A DNA stretch of 33,495 nucleotides from Bdellovibrionota bacterium. GTDB taxonomy: Bacteria > Bdellovibrionota_G > JALEGL01 > DATDPG01. Below the pieces are notes generated by a model. That model had not been told where the DNA came from, ran no database searches, and was given only the letters and a program-made list of their open reading frames with translations. The stretch is taken from NCBI GenBank assembly GCA_035292885.1, contig DATDPG010000079.1, forward strand, positions 1 through 33,495. Direction: 5' to 3'. Shown in pieces: positions 1,122 through 7,877 of this stretch (its first letter is position 1; each line of letters opens with the position of its first letter). The translations under genes were made by a program, and so were the position numbers.

Positions 1122-1544
1122 CAACTCCCTCCGCAACGATCCATGGGAGCAACCGCCATACCAACTTTTTTCTTCAATGGTTTCGCGAGCTAAGACGAAT
1201 GACTTGCCGCTCTTCCAGTTCTGCGGTCGCGCTGAATTTCGGCAACCGTCTGGAGCACCATAAGTCAAAACACCTATTTATGGCTTTGCTTTCAACCGAC
1301 TAGACGGCACGCAAGTTTTACAGCCACGATGGAAACTTAAGTTTACTTACGGTCAGCTAAAAAGTGGCCTCCGCGACACCTTAGGTGGAAACAGAAGTGA
1401 ACTATTTTCGGGGCTTTACGACAGCGAAATGGGAATCGGCTGTGCGGGATATTTCTTTGAAATAATTACACTTTTCTTCAGTTTGTCATTGATTCGCTCG
1501 GCCATCTTTTGCGACAATTATGGGGAGTTCTTCTCTTCCTAACT
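1122..1544. other. Divergent intergenic region without a clear gene
   Basis: This stretch separates the minus-strand lipoprotein (start 1059) from the plus-strand prepilin-type gene (start 1545). Short open frames cross it but none has a credible start or protein-like composition. It becomes AT-richer from about 1270 to 1500, as expected for promoters in both directions. I could not assign a convincing -35/-10 pair. Confidence 0.4.
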
Positions 1545-4244
1545 ATGAACAAGCGTTCGCTCTCGAAGCCGGCGAAATGCGGTTTTTCGCTCGTTGAATT
1601 AATGGTCGGGATGGTCATTGCGGCCCTGGTGGGCGGATTCGCCTATCGCGTCGTCACCAGCCAGGTGGGGCAGCAACACGGCCAGGCTTTGGTCCAAAGG
1701 CAGGATCGCGAGATCATGCAAGGGATCGAACAACTCCGCCGGGACCTGTCCGCGATGGATTACACCTGGACCGTTCGAAACGTCTCGCCGCTTTCGTATC
1801 AAGGCGAAGCCGCGCACAGCCCCCCCTCGGCGGGGGATTGGCTGACGTTCCCGGTGAGCGACGCCTCCTTCCTCCCACTGATGCAATTTCAAAACGATGT
1901 CGTTCTTGGGGCGGGTGGGGGTCAGCTCTTTGATCCGAACACGTTCCATACGCTTAAGTCGCCCGTCGCGAACTCCACGTCCTTGGCGGTGAACGATTGG
2001 GTGATCATCTATAAGACGAATCAATATCAGCTCGCCAAGATCATGGCGAAGAACCCCAACGACGATACCAGCCCGATCACGGCGCTTAAATTTGAACCTG
2101 TGAGCTCGGCGGACACGGCGGCGGCCGATCATCCCGGTGTTGTACTCAACCGCCTGGCGTCGCCGCCGGAATCGACCATCTTTCTCTCCGACGACACGAT
2201 CATTCAGAAAGTGGGCGTCGCGTCGTATCAGCTGATCGACGGGCCAGGGGGCGACAAGCCGGCTCGATACCTGGCCCGCACGTTCAACGGCGTTCGGTCG
2301 AATCTCGCGAAAGTGGAAAGTTTGTCGTTCTCGTTCGACGAGAAAACGGCCACCGGAATGACCACGGACATTTCAACCCCCGCGAACTGGAGCCGCGTGC
2401 GGGCGGTGAACACCCGAATCGCGACGAGCGGTTCTTCCGGAAAACAACGTCTGTGGAACTTTAAGTTGGCCTTCACCGGCTCGGGAACGAATATGGAGAT
2501 TTCATCGGGGGAAGTGAGCGTCACGCCGACGCGGACGTTGACGGACGTGTCGGTCGGTTCGCCGTCGTTCGAGCGGTACACGGACGGTACTTCTCGGGTC
2601 TTTGTGCCGGGGATCTCGTTTGGAAACAGCGCCGCGGCTTCGGCCGGCCGGCTGATCATCGTGGACGGCGCCACGGGCAATGAGCTGGGGAATGTAATGC
2701 TTTCCAGCGCGGGAAATCCGTTTCTGCCTTCAAGCACGGCCCTGATGCGATCGGGAAGCGGGTCGGTCGGTCTCATCCTGGGCGGGTACATGGAGGCAGG
2801 AGGTGTACGGAAGCCGGCGTTGGCGTGCTACCCCCGCAACAGCACGACCCAAAAGATCGACACGGGCGCCGCGGCGACGGTCACGGAACTTTCGGCGGCC
2901 ATGGGATTGAATGACACGATTTCCGTCGCGGCCGTTGGAAACAATATTTATGTCGCGCCGTATACGAAGGGAGCGGCGGGGGATCCTCTCTACATCTACA
3001 AGGTGCCGTATCAGGGGAACTGCACGTTCGGCGCGCCCGCGCTGTTTTATGAGGACAGTACGAGCGTGAACGACATCCTGACGACCTCGGTGGGCCTGGG
3101 GCCGAAAATCAGCGGAAATCCGCACCTCATTTTTGGTGAGTCGAACAGCGCGATCGGGGTCGCCGACGGTTCGGTCGAACTGGCGCAAATGGACGCAAGC
3201 GGGGACTTGGTGGTCGGCTGGCCGAAGAAAATCGCTGAGACAAACTGGGACACACGAGGAACGATGTGCGACGTTCCCGGACACTGCTATGTGGGAGAGC
3301 GCTTGTTGGTGGAAGCGATTCGCCAGACGGAGATCCAGGAAATTCTCGCGGGTTCTCCGGTGAAGCAGATGGATTTGGCGAACAAAGACACGGTCAACGG
3401 CCTCTATTACGCCTCGTATATCGTCGATCCGGCTTACATCCCGCCCACGGCGCCCGTTTCGGCGCAGACGATCACGTATCTGGGAGGAATGTCGACGTTC
3501 CTGGAGTCGCCGGTGCTGACGTTTCTCGCGATCACGAACGACAGCGTCTCCAACGACGCCTCGGTCTCGTCTGTTTTGATGGTGGGTGGCCCCCCCATTG
3601 TCCAGGCCGAGGTTTGGCCGGTGGTGCCCAACCTGAACGCCTCCCTCGTGGCCTTCGCACACACACAGAGTTTCCAGAAACTTCCCACGGATCGGCTTCC
3701 GCCCGGATACTTTCCTCCCAGCGGTACACTCGGGACTCCTGGCGCCCGCTGCGCGCGCCCGCTCGACGGTTCCACCGCGGGTTGGTTCGTATGCTTCTGC
3801 AACAAGTTTGCCGATTGCGCGATCGGTGCGGTGACGCCCACGCCCACGCCGACACCCACTCCCACGCCCACGCCGACCCCGACTCCATCAACACCGACAC
3901 CAACCCCGACACCTATGGACGGGCCTCCCCGTTACGACTGCGTCGATCACACGATTTGTATGTGCTGTAGCCAGGCGCAATGCTGCGCGGGTGGAGCCTA
4001 CACCGAATGTCTGGGCCACCTCCCCGATGGAACGCTCTATCTTCACTGTATGTTCCTCTGTGGTACCACCGCCCCCCAAGGCTCGTGCGGCGAAGGTGGA
4101 AGCTGCGCGAGCTCTGCTTGTGGCTGGACTCCCACTCCTACTTCGACTCCCACTCCCACCCCCACTCCAACTCCTTGCGCCAGCCCCAACCCTTGCGGGG
4201 AGCCTCCGTTTTGCGAACCCAAGGTTGGAGGAATCTGTCCGTAA
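1545..4244 (+). CDS. Giant prepilin-type protein: PilW-like N-terminus, PilY1-like middle, Thr-Pro/Cys-rich tail
   Basis: The 899-residue protein starts with a class III (type IV prepilin) signal. A 13-residue basic leader ends in Gly13; mature Phe14 is followed by SLVELMVGMVIAALVGG, with the conserved Glu at mature position 5. It should be cut and N-methylated by PilD and assembled with type IV pilus or pseudopilus parts. Ordinary minor pilins are roughly 150-350 residues. Here a large beta-rich region follows, containing a PQQ/propeller-like segment (IIVDGATGNELG), reminiscent of the PilY1 tip adhesin. The C-terminus has two Thr-Pro runs separated by a Cys-rich module (motifs CMCCSQAQCC and CGEGGSC), ending in a third Cys-rich stretch. 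I chose ATG 1545 over TTG 1509 because it gives a standard short leader. The last 107 bases overlap the convergent protease gene. The pilin signal is seen directly; the propeller assignment is inference. Confidence 0.8.
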   Translation: MNKRSLSKPAKCGFSLVELMVGMVIAALVGGFAYRVVTSQVGQQHGQALVQRQDREIMQGIEQLRRDLSAMDYTWTVRNVSPLSYQGEAAHSPPSAGDWLTFPVSDASFLPLMQFQNDVVLGAGGGQLFDPNTFHTLKSPVANSTSLAVNDWVIIYKTNQYQLAKIMAKNPNDDTSPITALKFEPVSSADTAAADHPGVVLNRLASPPESTIFLSDDTIIQKVGVASYQLIDGPGGDKPARYLARTFNGVRSNLAKVESLSFSFDEKTATGMTTDISTPANWSRVRAVNTRIATSGSSGKQRLWNFKLAFTGSGTNMEISSGEVSVTPTRTLTDVSVGSPSFERYTDGTSRVFVPGISFGNSAAASAGRLIIVDGATGNELGNVMLSSAGNPFLPSSTALMRSGSGSVGLILGGYMEAGGVRKPALACYPRNSTTQKIDTGAAATVTELSAAMGLNDTISVAAVGNNIYVAPYTKGAAGDPLYIYKVPYQGNCTFGAPALFYEDSTSVNDILTTSVGLGPKISGNPHLIFGESNSAIGVADGSVELAQMDASGDLVVGWPKKIAETNWDTRGTMCDVPGHCYVGERLLVEAIRQTEIQEILAGSPVKQMDLANKDTVNGLYYASYIVDPAYIPPTAPVSAQTITYLGGMSTFLESPVLTFLAITNDSVSNDASVSSVLMVGGPPIVQAEVWPVVPNLNASLVAFAHTQSFQKLPTDRLPPGYFPPSGTLGTPGARCARPLDGSTAGWFVCFCNKFADCAIGAVTPTPTPTPTPTPTPTPTPSTPTPTPTPMDGPPRYDCVDHTICMCCSQAQCCAGGAYTECLGHLPDGTLYLHCMFLCGTTAPQGSCGEGGSCASSACGWTPTPTSTPTPTPTPTPCASPNPCGEPPFCEPKVGGICP
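3834..3914 (+). repeat. Thr-Pro dipeptide-coding low-complexity tract
   Basis: This is a run of ACN-CCN codons within the prepilin-type gene, giving about 13 Thr-Pro dipeptides with one Ser-Thr interruption. It acts as an extended linker between the propeller-like region and the first Cys-rich module. The repeat is prone to slippage, so length variation between strains would be expected. Confidence 0.85.
4128..4174 (+). repeat. Second Thr-Pro-coding tract, overlapped by the convergent gene end
   Basis: A second run of Thr-Pro codons links the two C-terminal Cys-rich modules of the prepilin-type protein. Its complement encodes the Trp/Gly/Glu-rich last residues of the convergent protease frame (ending WGWEWESK), whose stop codon lies at 4138-4140. 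Confidence 0.8.
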
Positions 4245-6537
4245 GTTCATACGGCGAAGCCGGAAGCCGTGGTTCCTCAGCTTGCGGCGGCACTCCTACG
4301 CCTGGCGCCGGCTCTGAATGGACGATGGATAAGAACTCCTTCTCTGCAGACTCCGTGCGTCGCCTGTAGATCCAAACCCAGATCGGCGCCAGAAGAGCGA
4401 AGAAGAATTCCGGTCCCAACGGAACCTGGCATCCGCCGCCGCTGTCCACCGTGGTTCCCGTGTCCGGTGTCGGAGTATCCGTGGGAGTCGGTTCCGGTGT
4501 TGGCGTGTCCGTCGGCGTAGATGTGGGCGCAGGTGTGGGCGTCGGCGCGGGACAGACGGGCGCGGCGCCACATGCACCCGACACGGTCACGGTTCGCGTG
4601 GCGGGGGATGAATCCAAAGCAGCAAAGGCGTCGGTGCACACAAGCGAAACGGTGAACGCCCCGTCACTGGCGAATGTCTCAAATCCGGGATTTTTCGCCG
4701 TGCTGTCTGAAATTCCAGATCCGAGGCCGAAGTTCCATAAAAACGTCGCCCCCGTGGAGCTGTTCGGATCGCTGCAGGTCGAGGTAAAATTCACCATGCC
4801 CCCCGTCGTCACGCAGACATCGGCGGCCGGACAATCGATCACCGCATTCGGCGGCTCGTTGAGAAGTTCGGCGGCGGCCAAGACATCGGCCCGTCCCGCG
4901 CCGTACGTGTCATCGAATCCGCCCGGTCCCAAATCGACGGCCGAGTCGTTAAGTGCTTGTCGAATATCGGCCGCCGTCGCCGAACCGGTTTTCAGGAGAG
5001 CGCCCAAACCGGCAATATGCGGCGCCGCCGCCGACGTTCCAAAGAACGTCGAAGGAAATCCGCCGGCTCCGGTCACGGCCACGCCGTCGATCCCGCAAAT
5101 GTCCGGTTTGGGACGAGAAACCGAGGAAGGGAACGTGATATCCGCCGGGCCGAGGGAACTGTACGACTCGATATCGTCATTGCCCGGATCCGAGGCGTCG
5201 ATAGCACCCACGGCGACGGCACCGTCGACGGCGGCATGGCCGAAAATACTTCCGGCCCTTACGCCATATTCCTGGATCGGGCCATCGCCGAGAACGAAGA
5301 ATTCGAGCGTCTTATTCTCTAACGCCAAATATTTCGCCACGACGATCTTAACCGTTTGCGTCGACCCGGAACTGTTGGTGTAGATCAGCGCTTCAAGGGG
5401 ATCATCGTTCCCATCTTGCGTCGCTTCACTGCTGGTCAGAGCCGCCGACTCCGCGTTGTTCAACAGGAAAAGATCGTAATCATTCGCTGACGCGCCGAAG
5501 GCGTCGTTCCATTCGAGGACGACCAAGATCGTTCCATTATTCGGAAGTTGAACGTTCATCGTCGGGTCGCTGGTTCCGCCCGCCGCCGTTCCGAAATCGT
5601 GTGCGGTACCTCCAAACGCCGACACGTCGACAAGATCCGCCTGGTAATGCGTGTCCGCGTCGTTTCCCGCCGCCGAAGCGTAAAGGACGCCATCCGCCAC
5701 AACGCCGGCCACGGCTTGAGCCACCGGACCATTTTCGAAATACGGCTCGCCGAAAAATCCAACATCATCGACGATGATGTCCGCTCCGAATGTGTTTTCG
5801 AGATCGCTCAGGCGCGCGATGAAGTCCAACGATGTGTTCACCTCGCCCACCGCAAGTTGCGCCGACGGGGCGAGATCATGAACGATCTCCAGCATGGCGG
5901 TTCCTTCGTTACAACCACCGCTCATACAATTTCCAAAAACGGTGATGCCACTCGGCAAGTCACCTGTTGCGACCGCGCTGCTCATATTGTCGGCGCCGTC
6001 CGAAAGGACACCCACGCGCACGCCCGCGCCCGAATACCCGAGGGCGCGAAGCTCATCCGCCTTGAGGATCGCGTCTCCCTCCGTCGTCACGCTTCCCGCC
6101 CGAACATAAGCGTATGCGGGAGGCTTAATGGAACGAACAAAGGGAAGCTGCGAGACAGCGTCCAGACCACCGAGAGGAATTTTCACCTGTACCTGTTTGA
6201 GATTCAGATTTTCGATCTCGACCTGCGCCCCGATCGACTTGAAGTGCGCCTTTTCCAAAGCTCCGAACCGGTCGACACCCACGTACGTCTGCAGGAAGCC
6301 CGCGTCGTCCACGCGCACCAGGCGGTTTGAATATTGCGAGGCTCTCCGTTCGCCGGCGTTCGATCGCTGGATTCCAAGACGCTCAAGTTTTCGTTCAAAG
6401 TTTCTCAACAAAGAATGAACCTTTTCGGCCTTGGGCTTTGGTGGGAGATGAAATGTGGAAATTTTCTGAGCCAAAGCGGGGGTTCCGATAAAACCGACCG
6501 AAAGAGCGAAGACAAGAATCCAGCGAACGATATTCAT
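4138..6537 (-). CDS. Secreted S53-like subtilase-fold protease with propeptide, PKD domain and C-terminal sorting-type signal
   Basis: This 799-residue precursor has a signal peptide (residues 1-23, ending PALA), an N-terminal propeptide-like region (about 65-148) and a subtilase-fold domain (about 170-560). Asp180 lies in VGVLSDGAD. The segment matching the usual HGTHVAG of subtilisins reads NEGTAMLEIVHDLAP, with Glu211 at the His position, as in S53-like members. Next come IVDDVGFFGEP, an AAGN oxyanion motif near 292, and the nucleophile Ser502 in FFGTSAAAPHIAG. A PKD-like domain (about 563-652), a Thr-Pro linker and a GGGC-TM-RRR segment follow. The final 72 residues after RRR are unusual and overlap the prepilin-type gene. 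Start 6537 gives a proper signal peptide and a 4-base overlap with the upstream gene. It should be exported and self-processed; substrate unknown. Confidence 0.85.
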   Translation of the reverse strand: MNIVRWILVFALSVGFIGTPALAQKISTFHLPPKPKAEKVHSLLRNFERKLERLGIQRSNAGERRASQYSNRLVRVDDAGFLQTYVGVDRFGALEKAHFKSIGAQVEIENLNLKQVQVKIPLGGLDAVSQLPFVRSIKPPAYAYVRAGSVTTEGDAILKADELRALGYSGAGVRVGVLSDGADNMSSAVATGDLPSGITVFGNCMSGGCNEGTAMLEIVHDLAPSAQLAVGEVNTSLDFIARLSDLENTFGADIIVDDVGFFGEPYFENGPVAQAVAGVVADGVLYASAAGNDADTHYQADLVDVSAFGGTAHDFGTAAGGTSDPTMNVQLPNNGTILVVLEWNDAFGASANDYDLFLLNNAESAALTSSEATQDGNDDPLEALIYTNSSGSTQTVKIVVAKYLALENKTLEFFVLGDGPIQEYGVRAGSIFGHAAVDGAVAVGAIDASDPGNDDIESYSSLGPADITFPSSVSRPKPDICGIDGVAVTGAGGFPSTFFGTSAAAPHIAGLGALLKTGSATAADIRQALNDSAVDLGPGGFDDTYGAGRADVLAAAELLNEPPNAVIDCPAADVCVTTGGMVNFTSTCSDPNSSTGATFLWNFGLGSGISDSTAKNPGFETFASDGAFTVSLVCTDAFAALDSSPATRTVTVSGACGAAPVCPAPTPTPAPTSTPTDTPTPEPTPTDTPTPDTGTTVDSGGGCQVPLGPEFFFALLAPIWVWIYRRRTESAEKEFLSIVHSEPAPGVGVPPQAEEPRLPASPYELTDRFLQPWVRKTEAPRKGWGWRKELEWGWEWESK
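4357..4440 (-). other. Gly-Gly-Gly-Cys / transmembrane / Arg-cluster C-terminal sorting-type signal
   Basis: Residues 700-727 of the protease read as GGGC, a short spacer, a hydrophobic helix (FFFALLAPIWVWIY) and RRR. This is the architecture of Cys-containing CTERM signals such as MYXO-CTERM, Synergist-CTERM and JDVT-CTERM. These normally form the last residues of surface-anchored or secreted proteins. Here 72 more codons follow before the stop. Which named CTERM class it belongs to cannot be decided by eye. Confidence 0.6.
4459..4551 (-). repeat. Thr-Pro-rich linker tract in the protease gene
   Basis: This low-complexity coding repeat (Thr, Pro, Asp, Glu, Ala) lies between the PKD domain and the GGGC sorting-type segment. 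The convergent prepilin-type protein carries the same style of linker, which suggests that both proteins are exposed in the same compartment. Confidence 0.75.
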
Positions 6538-6992
6538 CTTTTCACTCCATAACTGGGCGGGACGATGCGCAGGACAAACGGTAACTCGGCCACTTTTCGG
6601 ACCTGGTCGTACGGAAGCCACGCCTGCACGAGGCGGAGAGGGGCATTGGCGATCTCGATTCGCGCGCCCAGTTGCCGCAACGATTCCGAAAAAGAATCCT
6701 CCCAACTCTTCACCCCCAGATACACTTGAATTTCGCCGTCGTCATTTACGTGAATGAGCGGCGTCGAGAAACGCGAAAGATCTTTGCGGCCGGTTCGCTC
6801 GTTCTGTCCCAGCTTTGCGACGATTTCTCGGACGCGGGGATCGATCTTTTCCGCCGGAGCCGTTTGCACCGCGGAAGCGTCCGGCGAGGGGGCCGGGTTC
6901 GCCGATTTCGCCGAACAACTTGTCGAAACCAGGGCGCCGTAAAGCGCGACAAAAAGGGAAAGGAGCGGAAAAATTTGGAGAGGAGCGTACAT
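6534..6992 (-). CDS. Free-standing protease-propeptide-like protein, possible lipoprotein inhibitor or chaperone
   Basis: The 152-residue protein has a hydrophobic signal sequence with Cys26 in a weak lipobox context (STSC) and a short Ala/Pro/Ser-rich linker. Its C-terminal half is clearly homologous to the propeptide region of the downstream protease. Both share the order S..L..V.DDG..Q.Y.GV, then LGA..EI.N or IGA..EIEN, then a strongly similar ending: ELPFVLRIVPPSYGV here versus QLPFVRSIKPPAYAYV in the protease. It carries no catalytic domain. Its stop overlaps the protease start by ATGA, so the two are probably translationally coupled. Subtilase propeptides act as foldases and tight inhibitors (the I9-like principle), so this protein may control the protease in trans. 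The homology is seen directly; the role is inference. Start 6992 gives the best signal sequence; no strong ribosome-binding site is visible. Confidence 0.75.
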   Translation of the reverse strand: MYAPLQIFPLLSLFVALYGALVSTSCSAKSANPAPSPDASAVQTAPAEKIDPRVREIVAKLGQNERTGRKDLSRFSTPLIHVNDDGEIQVYLGVKSWEDSFSESLRQLGARIEIANAPLRLVQAWLPYDQVRKVAELPFVLRIVPPSYGVKR

Positions 6993-7106
6993 CTAGCCGG
7001 AAAAGCCGGTGTCCAGAGTACATCTCGAAGTGAGGGCTTGGCAAACGGACGGGCGAGCCGAATCTTTTCCCTTGCAACCTCCATCGCCTCGCTCATATTC
7101 GAAGCG

Positions 7107-7877
7107 ATGTTTACGAGCCGTTTGTTACTCTTTTGGCCGATTTCCATCTTGGCGTTACAAGGATGCTCGACAGGAAACGGCGCTTCCACGGCTCAGACGA
7201 TTTTCACAGGCCAGACCCGGGAAATTCGCTACGAAGTCGACTATATGACCGGCGCGGAACCGTTCGTGGGAGATGCGCCCAACGGCGCCCCGATTTGGTA
7301 TTTTCTTCGTACGAACATTTCCGCGCTCTTCGACTCCACAAAGACAGTTACGGTGCCCACAACGCTCGACGACATGCAGGCGATCCCCGCGGGAGGAACC
7401 GATTATTCTCAGTCCGACATTCTAGCGTTGGCGGACACGTATCGCGATCATCCGGCCTTCGAAAACGGTGTGACGACGATTTATGTTCTTTTTCTCGACG
7501 GCTATTTCGTCTCGGACGAAAAGACGGATTCCTCCGTTCTCGGGGTATCCATCGGGGATACAAGTGTGATTGCCATATTCAAGCCGGCGATCACAGCGGG
7601 CACTTTTGCGACACTGTTCGTCGGAAAGTTTGTCGAACAGAGTGTCCTCATTCACGAGTCGGGTCATGCGCTGGGACTTGTCAACAACGGCCTGGCGCTT
7701 ACCTCCGCTCATCAAGACGCCGAGCATGGAGCCCATTGCACGAATGACCGCTGTGTCATGTATTACTTGAATGAAGGAATCGCCGACCTCGTGGAGTTTC
7801 TTCAACAGGTGAAATTGGACGGCGACACCGTGATCTTTGGAGACGAATGCTTAAACGACGCCCACGCGGCACTCTAA
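7107..7877 (+). CDS. Lipoprotein zinc metallopeptidase, metzincin/archaemetzincin-like
   Basis: The 256-residue protein begins with a lipoprotein signal ending Leu-Gln-Gly-Cys (Cys20). Near the C-terminus is the zinc motif HESGHALGLVNNG (His183, Glu184, His187). It is followed by a His/Cys-rich stretch AEHGAHCTNDRCVMYY, which supplies a likely third ligand (His207 or His210) and a Cys-x4-Cys-Val-Met turn. This resembles small metzincin-type peptidases, in which a Met-turn underlies the zinc site, and recalls archaemetzincin Cys spacing. It should sit on the periplasmic or outer face of the envelope. The gene is divergent from the propeptide/protease pair with about 114 bases between starts, so the two units may share a control region. 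The start was chosen because it gives the lipoprotein signal; the frame is open well upstream. Confidence 0.8.
   Translation: MFTSRLLLFWPISILALQGCSTGNGASTAQTIFTGQTREIRYEVDYMTGAEPFVGDAPNGAPIWYFLRTNISALFDSTKTVTVPTTLDDMQAIPAGGTDYSQSDILALADTYRDHPAFENGVTTIYVLFLDGYFVSDEKTDSSVLGVSIGDTSVIAIFKPAITAGTFATLFVGKFVEQSVLIHESGHALGLVNNGLALTSAHQDAEHGAHCTNDRCVMYYLNEGIADLVEFLQQVKLDGDTVIFGDECLNDAHAAL

Follow-up and report, generated by a model that had tools for sequence, protein, structure and literature searches.

A stand-alone, probably membrane-tethered subtilisin-type propeptide encoded next to an exported subtilase recurs in three deep groups of bacteria

We identified a two-gene unit in a 33,495-nucleotide stretch of bacterial DNA (hereafter the window, meaning the whole stretch that was analysed), in which a small exported protein related to a subtilisin propeptide is encoded directly ahead of an exported protease. 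We favour, with somewhat better than even confidence, the view that this small protein (hereafter the partner) is a stand-alone, membrane-tethered propeptide of the subtilisin type that is dedicated to the neighbouring protease and holds the enzyme inactive near the producer's envelope. More tentatively, we suggest that this may be a general bacterial means of self-protection, in which a propeptide duplicate, repeatedly freed and fixed to the membrane, would keep an exported, often surface-anchored subtilase with an unusual active site silent at home and active only where the partner is absent.

The partner gene (P0002; 6534–6992, minus strand) runs from an ATG at 6992–6990 to a TGA at 6536–6534 and encodes 152 residues, in agreement with the coordinates at which a small exported protein had been predicted. 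Its stop codon overlaps the start codon of the protease gene in an ATGA (6534–6537, minus strand), suggesting translational coupling, and the partner-then-protease order is that of the original prediction. BLASTP aligned partner residues 47–152 with protease residues 37–146 (37/110 identities, 34%; 63 bits; E = 2e-16), and the alignment ends in a common LPFV..I.PP.Y motif and tail (LPFVLRIVPPSYGVKR in the partner, LPFVRSIKPPAYAYVR in the protease). Thus, the predicted homology and its shared ending were recovered, but over about 105–110 residues rather than 80. A clear signal peptide (6915–6992, minus strand) ends in a lipobox-like sequence, VSTS-C26, with presumed lipidation at Cys26; it is imperfect, because Ser occupies position -3, and a lipobox is found at the equivalent position in most other partners. 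It is followed by a linker rich in Pro, Ser and Ala (residues 27–48; 6849–6914, minus strand), for which model confidence is mostly low, and by a propeptide-like domain delimited by the model and Foldseek (residues 49–152; 6537–6848, minus strand). This domain closes with the tail PPSYGVKR (6537–6560, minus strand), which aligns with the terminus of the propeptide that the protease itself carries (the cis-propeptide), the putative active-site tail. As anticipated, we detected no catalytic domain and no Pfam or NCBIfam family match in the partner, which is the sole free-standing copy in the 3.1-Mb source genome.

An AlphaFold2 model of the partner, built on 12 sequences, has a mean pLDDT of 81, with core blocks at 88–98 and mostly above 90. 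The predicted elements (strands at residues 87–94, 111–116, 121–127 and 140–144; helices at 99–107 and 128–135) follow the order beta-alpha-beta-beta-alpha-beta, as in subtilisin propeptides. The top Foldseek matches in the PDB were a chain of the CspB protease and the propeptides of Tk-subtilisin, subtilisin E and BPN' (E = 0.02–0.06, probability about 1.00), with TM scores of 0.73–0.80 to isolated propeptides. Such weak E-values are usual for folds of 65 residues, and the matches agree with one another to a telling degree; the C-terminal domain of T4 MotA, a small domain that is unrelated, also appeared, with an rmsd of 9–10. Curated Pfam propeptide and inhibitor models matched none of the 12 members searched, and sequence-profile searches of Pfam and the PDB with the propeptide family returned nothing meaningful. 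We conclude, with high confidence in the modelled core, that the partner is predicted to adopt a subtilisin-propeptide (I9-type) fold as a separate gene product that has no catalytic domain.

The protease gene (P0001; 4138–6537, minus strand) encodes 799 residues, in which a signal peptide is followed by a propeptide, a catalytic domain of the subtilase type, a PKD domain and a tail of Gly-Cys, hydrophobic and Arg segments. The cis-propeptide spans about residues 25–146 (6100–6465, minus strand) according to BLASTP and the model; its junction with the mature enzyme was placed by subtilisin homology, with PDB matches beginning at query residues 153–156 against chain positions 6–7. The catalytic domain (residues 147–565; 4843–6099, minus strand) scored 44.9 bits against Pfam Peptidase_S8 (PF00082; cut-off 21.8 bits) and is interrupted in the model by a beta-rich insert at about residues 297–430; the protease model has a moderate mean pLDDT of 71, and its best matches are pro-subtilisins and Csp germination proteases. 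Pfam also assigns the PKD domain (residues 568–651; 4585–4836, minus strand). In sequence alignments, Glu211 falls where subtilisin has its catalytic His (His64) and is invariant in the family, and Ser179 stands at the Asp-motif position, so that the Asp-His-Ser triad appears to be absent; Asn292, which aligns with the oxyanion residue of S8 enzymes, and the serine of GTSAA are retained. This would be an unusual active site, with Glu for the catalytic His and Ser for Asp. The enzyme had been called S53-like. That label is only partly apt, because the domain matches Pfam S8 and the propeptide resembles the subtilisin type rather than that of S53; S53 propeptide and catalytic Pfam models had no match in the protease, and the Glu is the sole sedolisin-like trait seen. 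In short, the enzyme combines an S8 subtilase fold with a Glu where subtilisins have the catalytic His. We also noted an invariant Asp-Asp at residues 257–258, within residues 175–300 (about 5638–6015, minus strand).

The proposal of a dedicated two-gene unit called for a co-occurrence check, and profile searches revealed adjacent partner-then-protease genes on the same strand in 12 genomes from three deep groups, the 11 others being one genome of another phylum and ten gammaproteobacteria. This recurrence runs counter to one of the outcomes named beforehand as refuting the proposal, a lack of conserved co-occurrence. A search of 385 genomes with the protease as query identified the second pair in G366, of a phylum unrelated by kinship, where a 148-residue lipobox-like protein precedes the protease by 14 bases. 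This protease is frameshifted within its catalytic domain (about 7270–7450 of locus L054), through either a fault of the assembly or genuine decay. Among the five genomes in that phylum, G385 also encodes a stand-alone protein and a matching protease, but on different contigs. A profile search across the class that holds locus L040 (titled Gammaproteobacteria; 321 genomes) then added pairs in G551, G663, G522 and G637. The order of G551 has the pair in both of its two genomes, and the order of G522 in eight of nine (G522, G730, G637, G727, G726, G728, G725 and G724); the protease of G724 begins just before a contig end, and in the ninth genome, G729, the contig terminates after the partner. 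G522 and G730 have a second partner in common, which lies about 5.5 kb away from another protease. In these second sets (L127 and L165) the conserved Tyr of the partner is lost; in G522, the intervening genes resemble, by eye, phosphotransferases and nucleotidyltransferases, and an LptD-like gene follows. The majority of other protease-family members have no partner. A further 399 Pseudomonadota genomes contained no new stand-alone frame, which marks the pair as rare beyond certain lineages. A tblastn search of plasmids gave no match, nor did a pattern scan of genome contigs with the partner alone, whereas a query with the protease succeeded. We rejected a 270-residue match in G343, which is a truncated ordinary S8 protease, and left a divergent small protein of G386, broken by a contig end, out of the counts.

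The partners are under purifying selection, with dN/dS values of 0.20–0.34 in five comparisons, similar to the 0.19–0.24 of the proteases. In a tree of 35 propeptide domains, constraining all stand-alone domains to one group was rejected with a p-AU of 1e-5, for groups chosen post hoc and a short domain. A single origin of all stand-alone partners is thereby rejected, and the stand-alone form probably arose two or more times. The lipoprotein-type partners constrained as one group were borderline or weakly rejected (p = 0.04). Partners of the C-terminally anchored type group as sister to the propeptide of the protease with which they are paired.

Every partner bears an anchor-type signal, either lipobox-like or a C-terminal hydrophobic segment. 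Lipobox-like signals occur in the partners of twelve genomes and the majority are canonical; those of the source genome (VSTS-C, at -3), of G366 and of the second partners of G522 and G730 are imperfect. The other partners of G522 and G730, and that of G729, have a C-terminal hydrophobic segment followed by basic residues. To judge from these sequences, the suggestion that the partner might be lipid-anchored appears sound, and the lipid is probably carried by Cys26. Under the +2 rule of E. coli, lipoproteins that lack Asp after the Cys go to the outer membrane; none of the lipobox-like partners has Asp there, which points to an outer-membrane location. Proteases often have tails of their own. 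In the window, a GGGC-hydrophobic segment-RRR sequence (residues 700–727; 4357–4440, minus strand) resembles a C-terminal sorting or anchor signal; this GlyGly-CTERM-like tail is visible by eye, is followed by a 72-residue extension and scored over the cut-off of no model. Gly-rich, hydrophobic and basic tails were scored in 12/12 proteases with a partner and 3/22 without (Fisher p = 8e-7, a value inflated by related genomes, with tail classes assigned by eye). Rhombosortase exceeded its family cut-off in ten of the 11 gammaproteobacterial genomes that carry a partner, the exception being the 1.2-Mb assembly of G729; in the source genome only rhomboids below threshold were found (45 bits against a cut-off of 84).

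In the mechanism that we infer, from docking and inhibition to where the partner is anchored and what it is for, the partner would be exported and anchored, probably via lipidated Cys26. The propeptide fold of the partner would dock onto the face of the protease that normally lies under the cis-propeptide, and its tail, PPSYGVKR-COOH, would occupy the substrate groove in the manner of a cleaved product. When the protease removed its cis-propeptide, the tethered partner would take over and keep the enzyme inactive near the producer's envelope; silencing at that site would confine activity to the right place or time. Nine of the 11 lipoprotein-type partners that keep the conserved Tyr end 4–5 residues past it, and the ends of lipoprotein-type partners align with the cis-propeptide end, which by homology would be the cleavage end lying in the active site. 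A stop at the equivalent of the cut end is what one would expect of a tail that sits in the active site like a product, and this stop position, together with anchoring and coupling, leads us to favour a cognate tethered inhibitor. Characterised eukaryotic stand-alone propeptide-like proteins are inhibitors (PMC6993865), which supports such a role. Moreover, every partner-associated protease has its own propeptide, so a chaperone acting in trans is not strictly needed. Against the inhibitor reading, the partner is non-adjacent in G385 and in the second copies of G522 and G730, and a free C-terminus is not universal, since C-terminally anchored partners extend past the tail.

This anatomy would also suit a foldase or stabiliser tethered to the membrane, because propeptides are folding catalysts for their enzymes besides being inhibitors. 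The partner could then aid folding or survival of the protease after export, as lipase foldases do for lipases, and might also hold the protease at the membrane; that its gene comes first and is coupled would suit this role. We regard this reading as rather unlikely, yet as a serious rival, because the dentilisin subtilase requires the lipoprotein PrcB: a non-polar deletion of prcB in Treponema denticola leaves prtP transcribed and the PrtP protein absent (PMC8167434). It is weakened by the complete cis-propeptide of each protease, by the many family members that do without a partner and by the conservation, in most partners, of a tail that would reach the active site. That tail would also be superfluous if the partner were mainly a tether or receptor whose propeptide surface keeps the protease, secreted and still active, on the membrane of the producer. 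Self-anchored proteases, too, require no second tether, and we consider this role improbable, even though all partners have anchor-type signals and the excess of anchor-like tails among partnered proteases, uncorrected for kinship, is in line with it.

A different target is conceivable, since some propeptides also inhibit other subtilisins (PMC6993865), and the unlinked partner of G385 would be compatible with action on proteases of a host or competitor instead of the neighbour. However, linkage to one protease family is tight in 12 genomes and G385 still encodes a matching protease, making this very improbable. Least credible of all, and already largely refuted, is that the partner is a functionless, decaying propeptide duplicate. 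Propeptides diverge fast, and the rejection of a single-clade origin implies that duplications recur, but more than a dozen genomes have intact frames, dN/dS is low, and new signal sequences and a conserved gene order accompany the freed domain.

Tethered inhibition of a subtilase by a propeptide relative would have partial precedents. Fungi, plants and apicomplexans have stand-alone inhibitors of subtilases that resemble propeptides, including, in MEROPS family I9, P. ostreatus peptidase A inhibitor 1, the yeast peptidase B inhibitor and Arabidopsis SPI-1, and further Plasmodium SUB1-ProM and Toxoplasma MIC5 (PMC6993865). I9-type inhibitors resemble the partner as small, separate products with a subtilisin-propeptide fold, and SUB1-ProM also adjoins its own protease gene in the same orientation; unlike the partner, the known cases are eukaryotic, and none is described in that source as lipid-anchored or overlap-coupled (PMC6993865). 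In bacteria, the Spi-SpeB, staphostatin and Bacteroides Bfi/Bti systems have small inhibitor genes co-transcribed with a protease; some of the Bacteroides inhibitors are predicted lipoproteins, and self-protection is the role proposed (PMC3462683). Their targets, however, are cysteine proteases; staphostatins differ in fold from the partner, and Spi is thought to be cytoplasmic. In the dentilisin operon of T. denticola (PrcB-PrcA-PrtP), which likewise encodes a subtilase, the product of the first gene, PrcB, is a lipoprotein whose interaction with the protease takes place at the outer membrane (PMC8167434). Compared by description, PrcB differs in being larger (23 kDa) and required for PrtP, and it was reported to have no relatives outside oral treponemes (PMC8167434). 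PopC of Myxococcus xanthus is a bacterial subtilisin-like protease restrained by a small partner, PopD, until needed, but PopD blocks secretion of PopC, which has no recognised signal peptide, and is degraded on starvation (PMC6434023). VesB, a GlyGly-CTERM/rhombosortase substrate, resembles the protease in export, a propeptide and, by eye, a Gly/Ser-rich, hydrophobic and basic C-terminal tail; it is a different serine protease, and no trans-propeptide is described for it in that source (PMC6219818). The literature searched, mainly open-licence, described no case in bacteria of a membrane-tethered propeptide that is paired with a subtilase, consistent with the pair having been called undescribed. 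The stand-alone inhibitors of subtilases on record come from a handful of eukaryotes, and protein peptidase inhibitors have been noted as sparse in prokaryotes (PMC6993865). If our reading is correct, the recurrent membrane-tethered form beside its enzyme would show spatial control of an exported subtilase by bacteria, and would provide, for enzymes whose active site contains Glu, a cognate inhibitor that is genetically encoded. Since a second copy is supplied in trans, the pair would also allow what propeptides do in folding to be cleanly separated from what they do in inhibition.

Upstream of the pair lies a divergent intergenic region (6993–7106), in which no sigma-70-type promoter match was found. 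The divergent gene (7107–7877, plus strand) starts 115 bases from the partner; its product is a predicted lipoprotein (LQGC) that matches no Pfam model over the cut-off and has a zinc-metalloprotease-like motif, HESGHALGL. At the other end, the protease frame runs 72 residues past its hydrophobic/Arg tail (4138–4356, minus strand) into an odd end rich in Trp, Glu and Lys, which overlaps a convergent frame (1509–4244, plus strand) and may reflect a frame error or a late stop. At its N-terminus the convergent frame has a motif resembling that of type IV pilins (GFSLVELMVGMV), and it also contains long Pro-Thr repeats.
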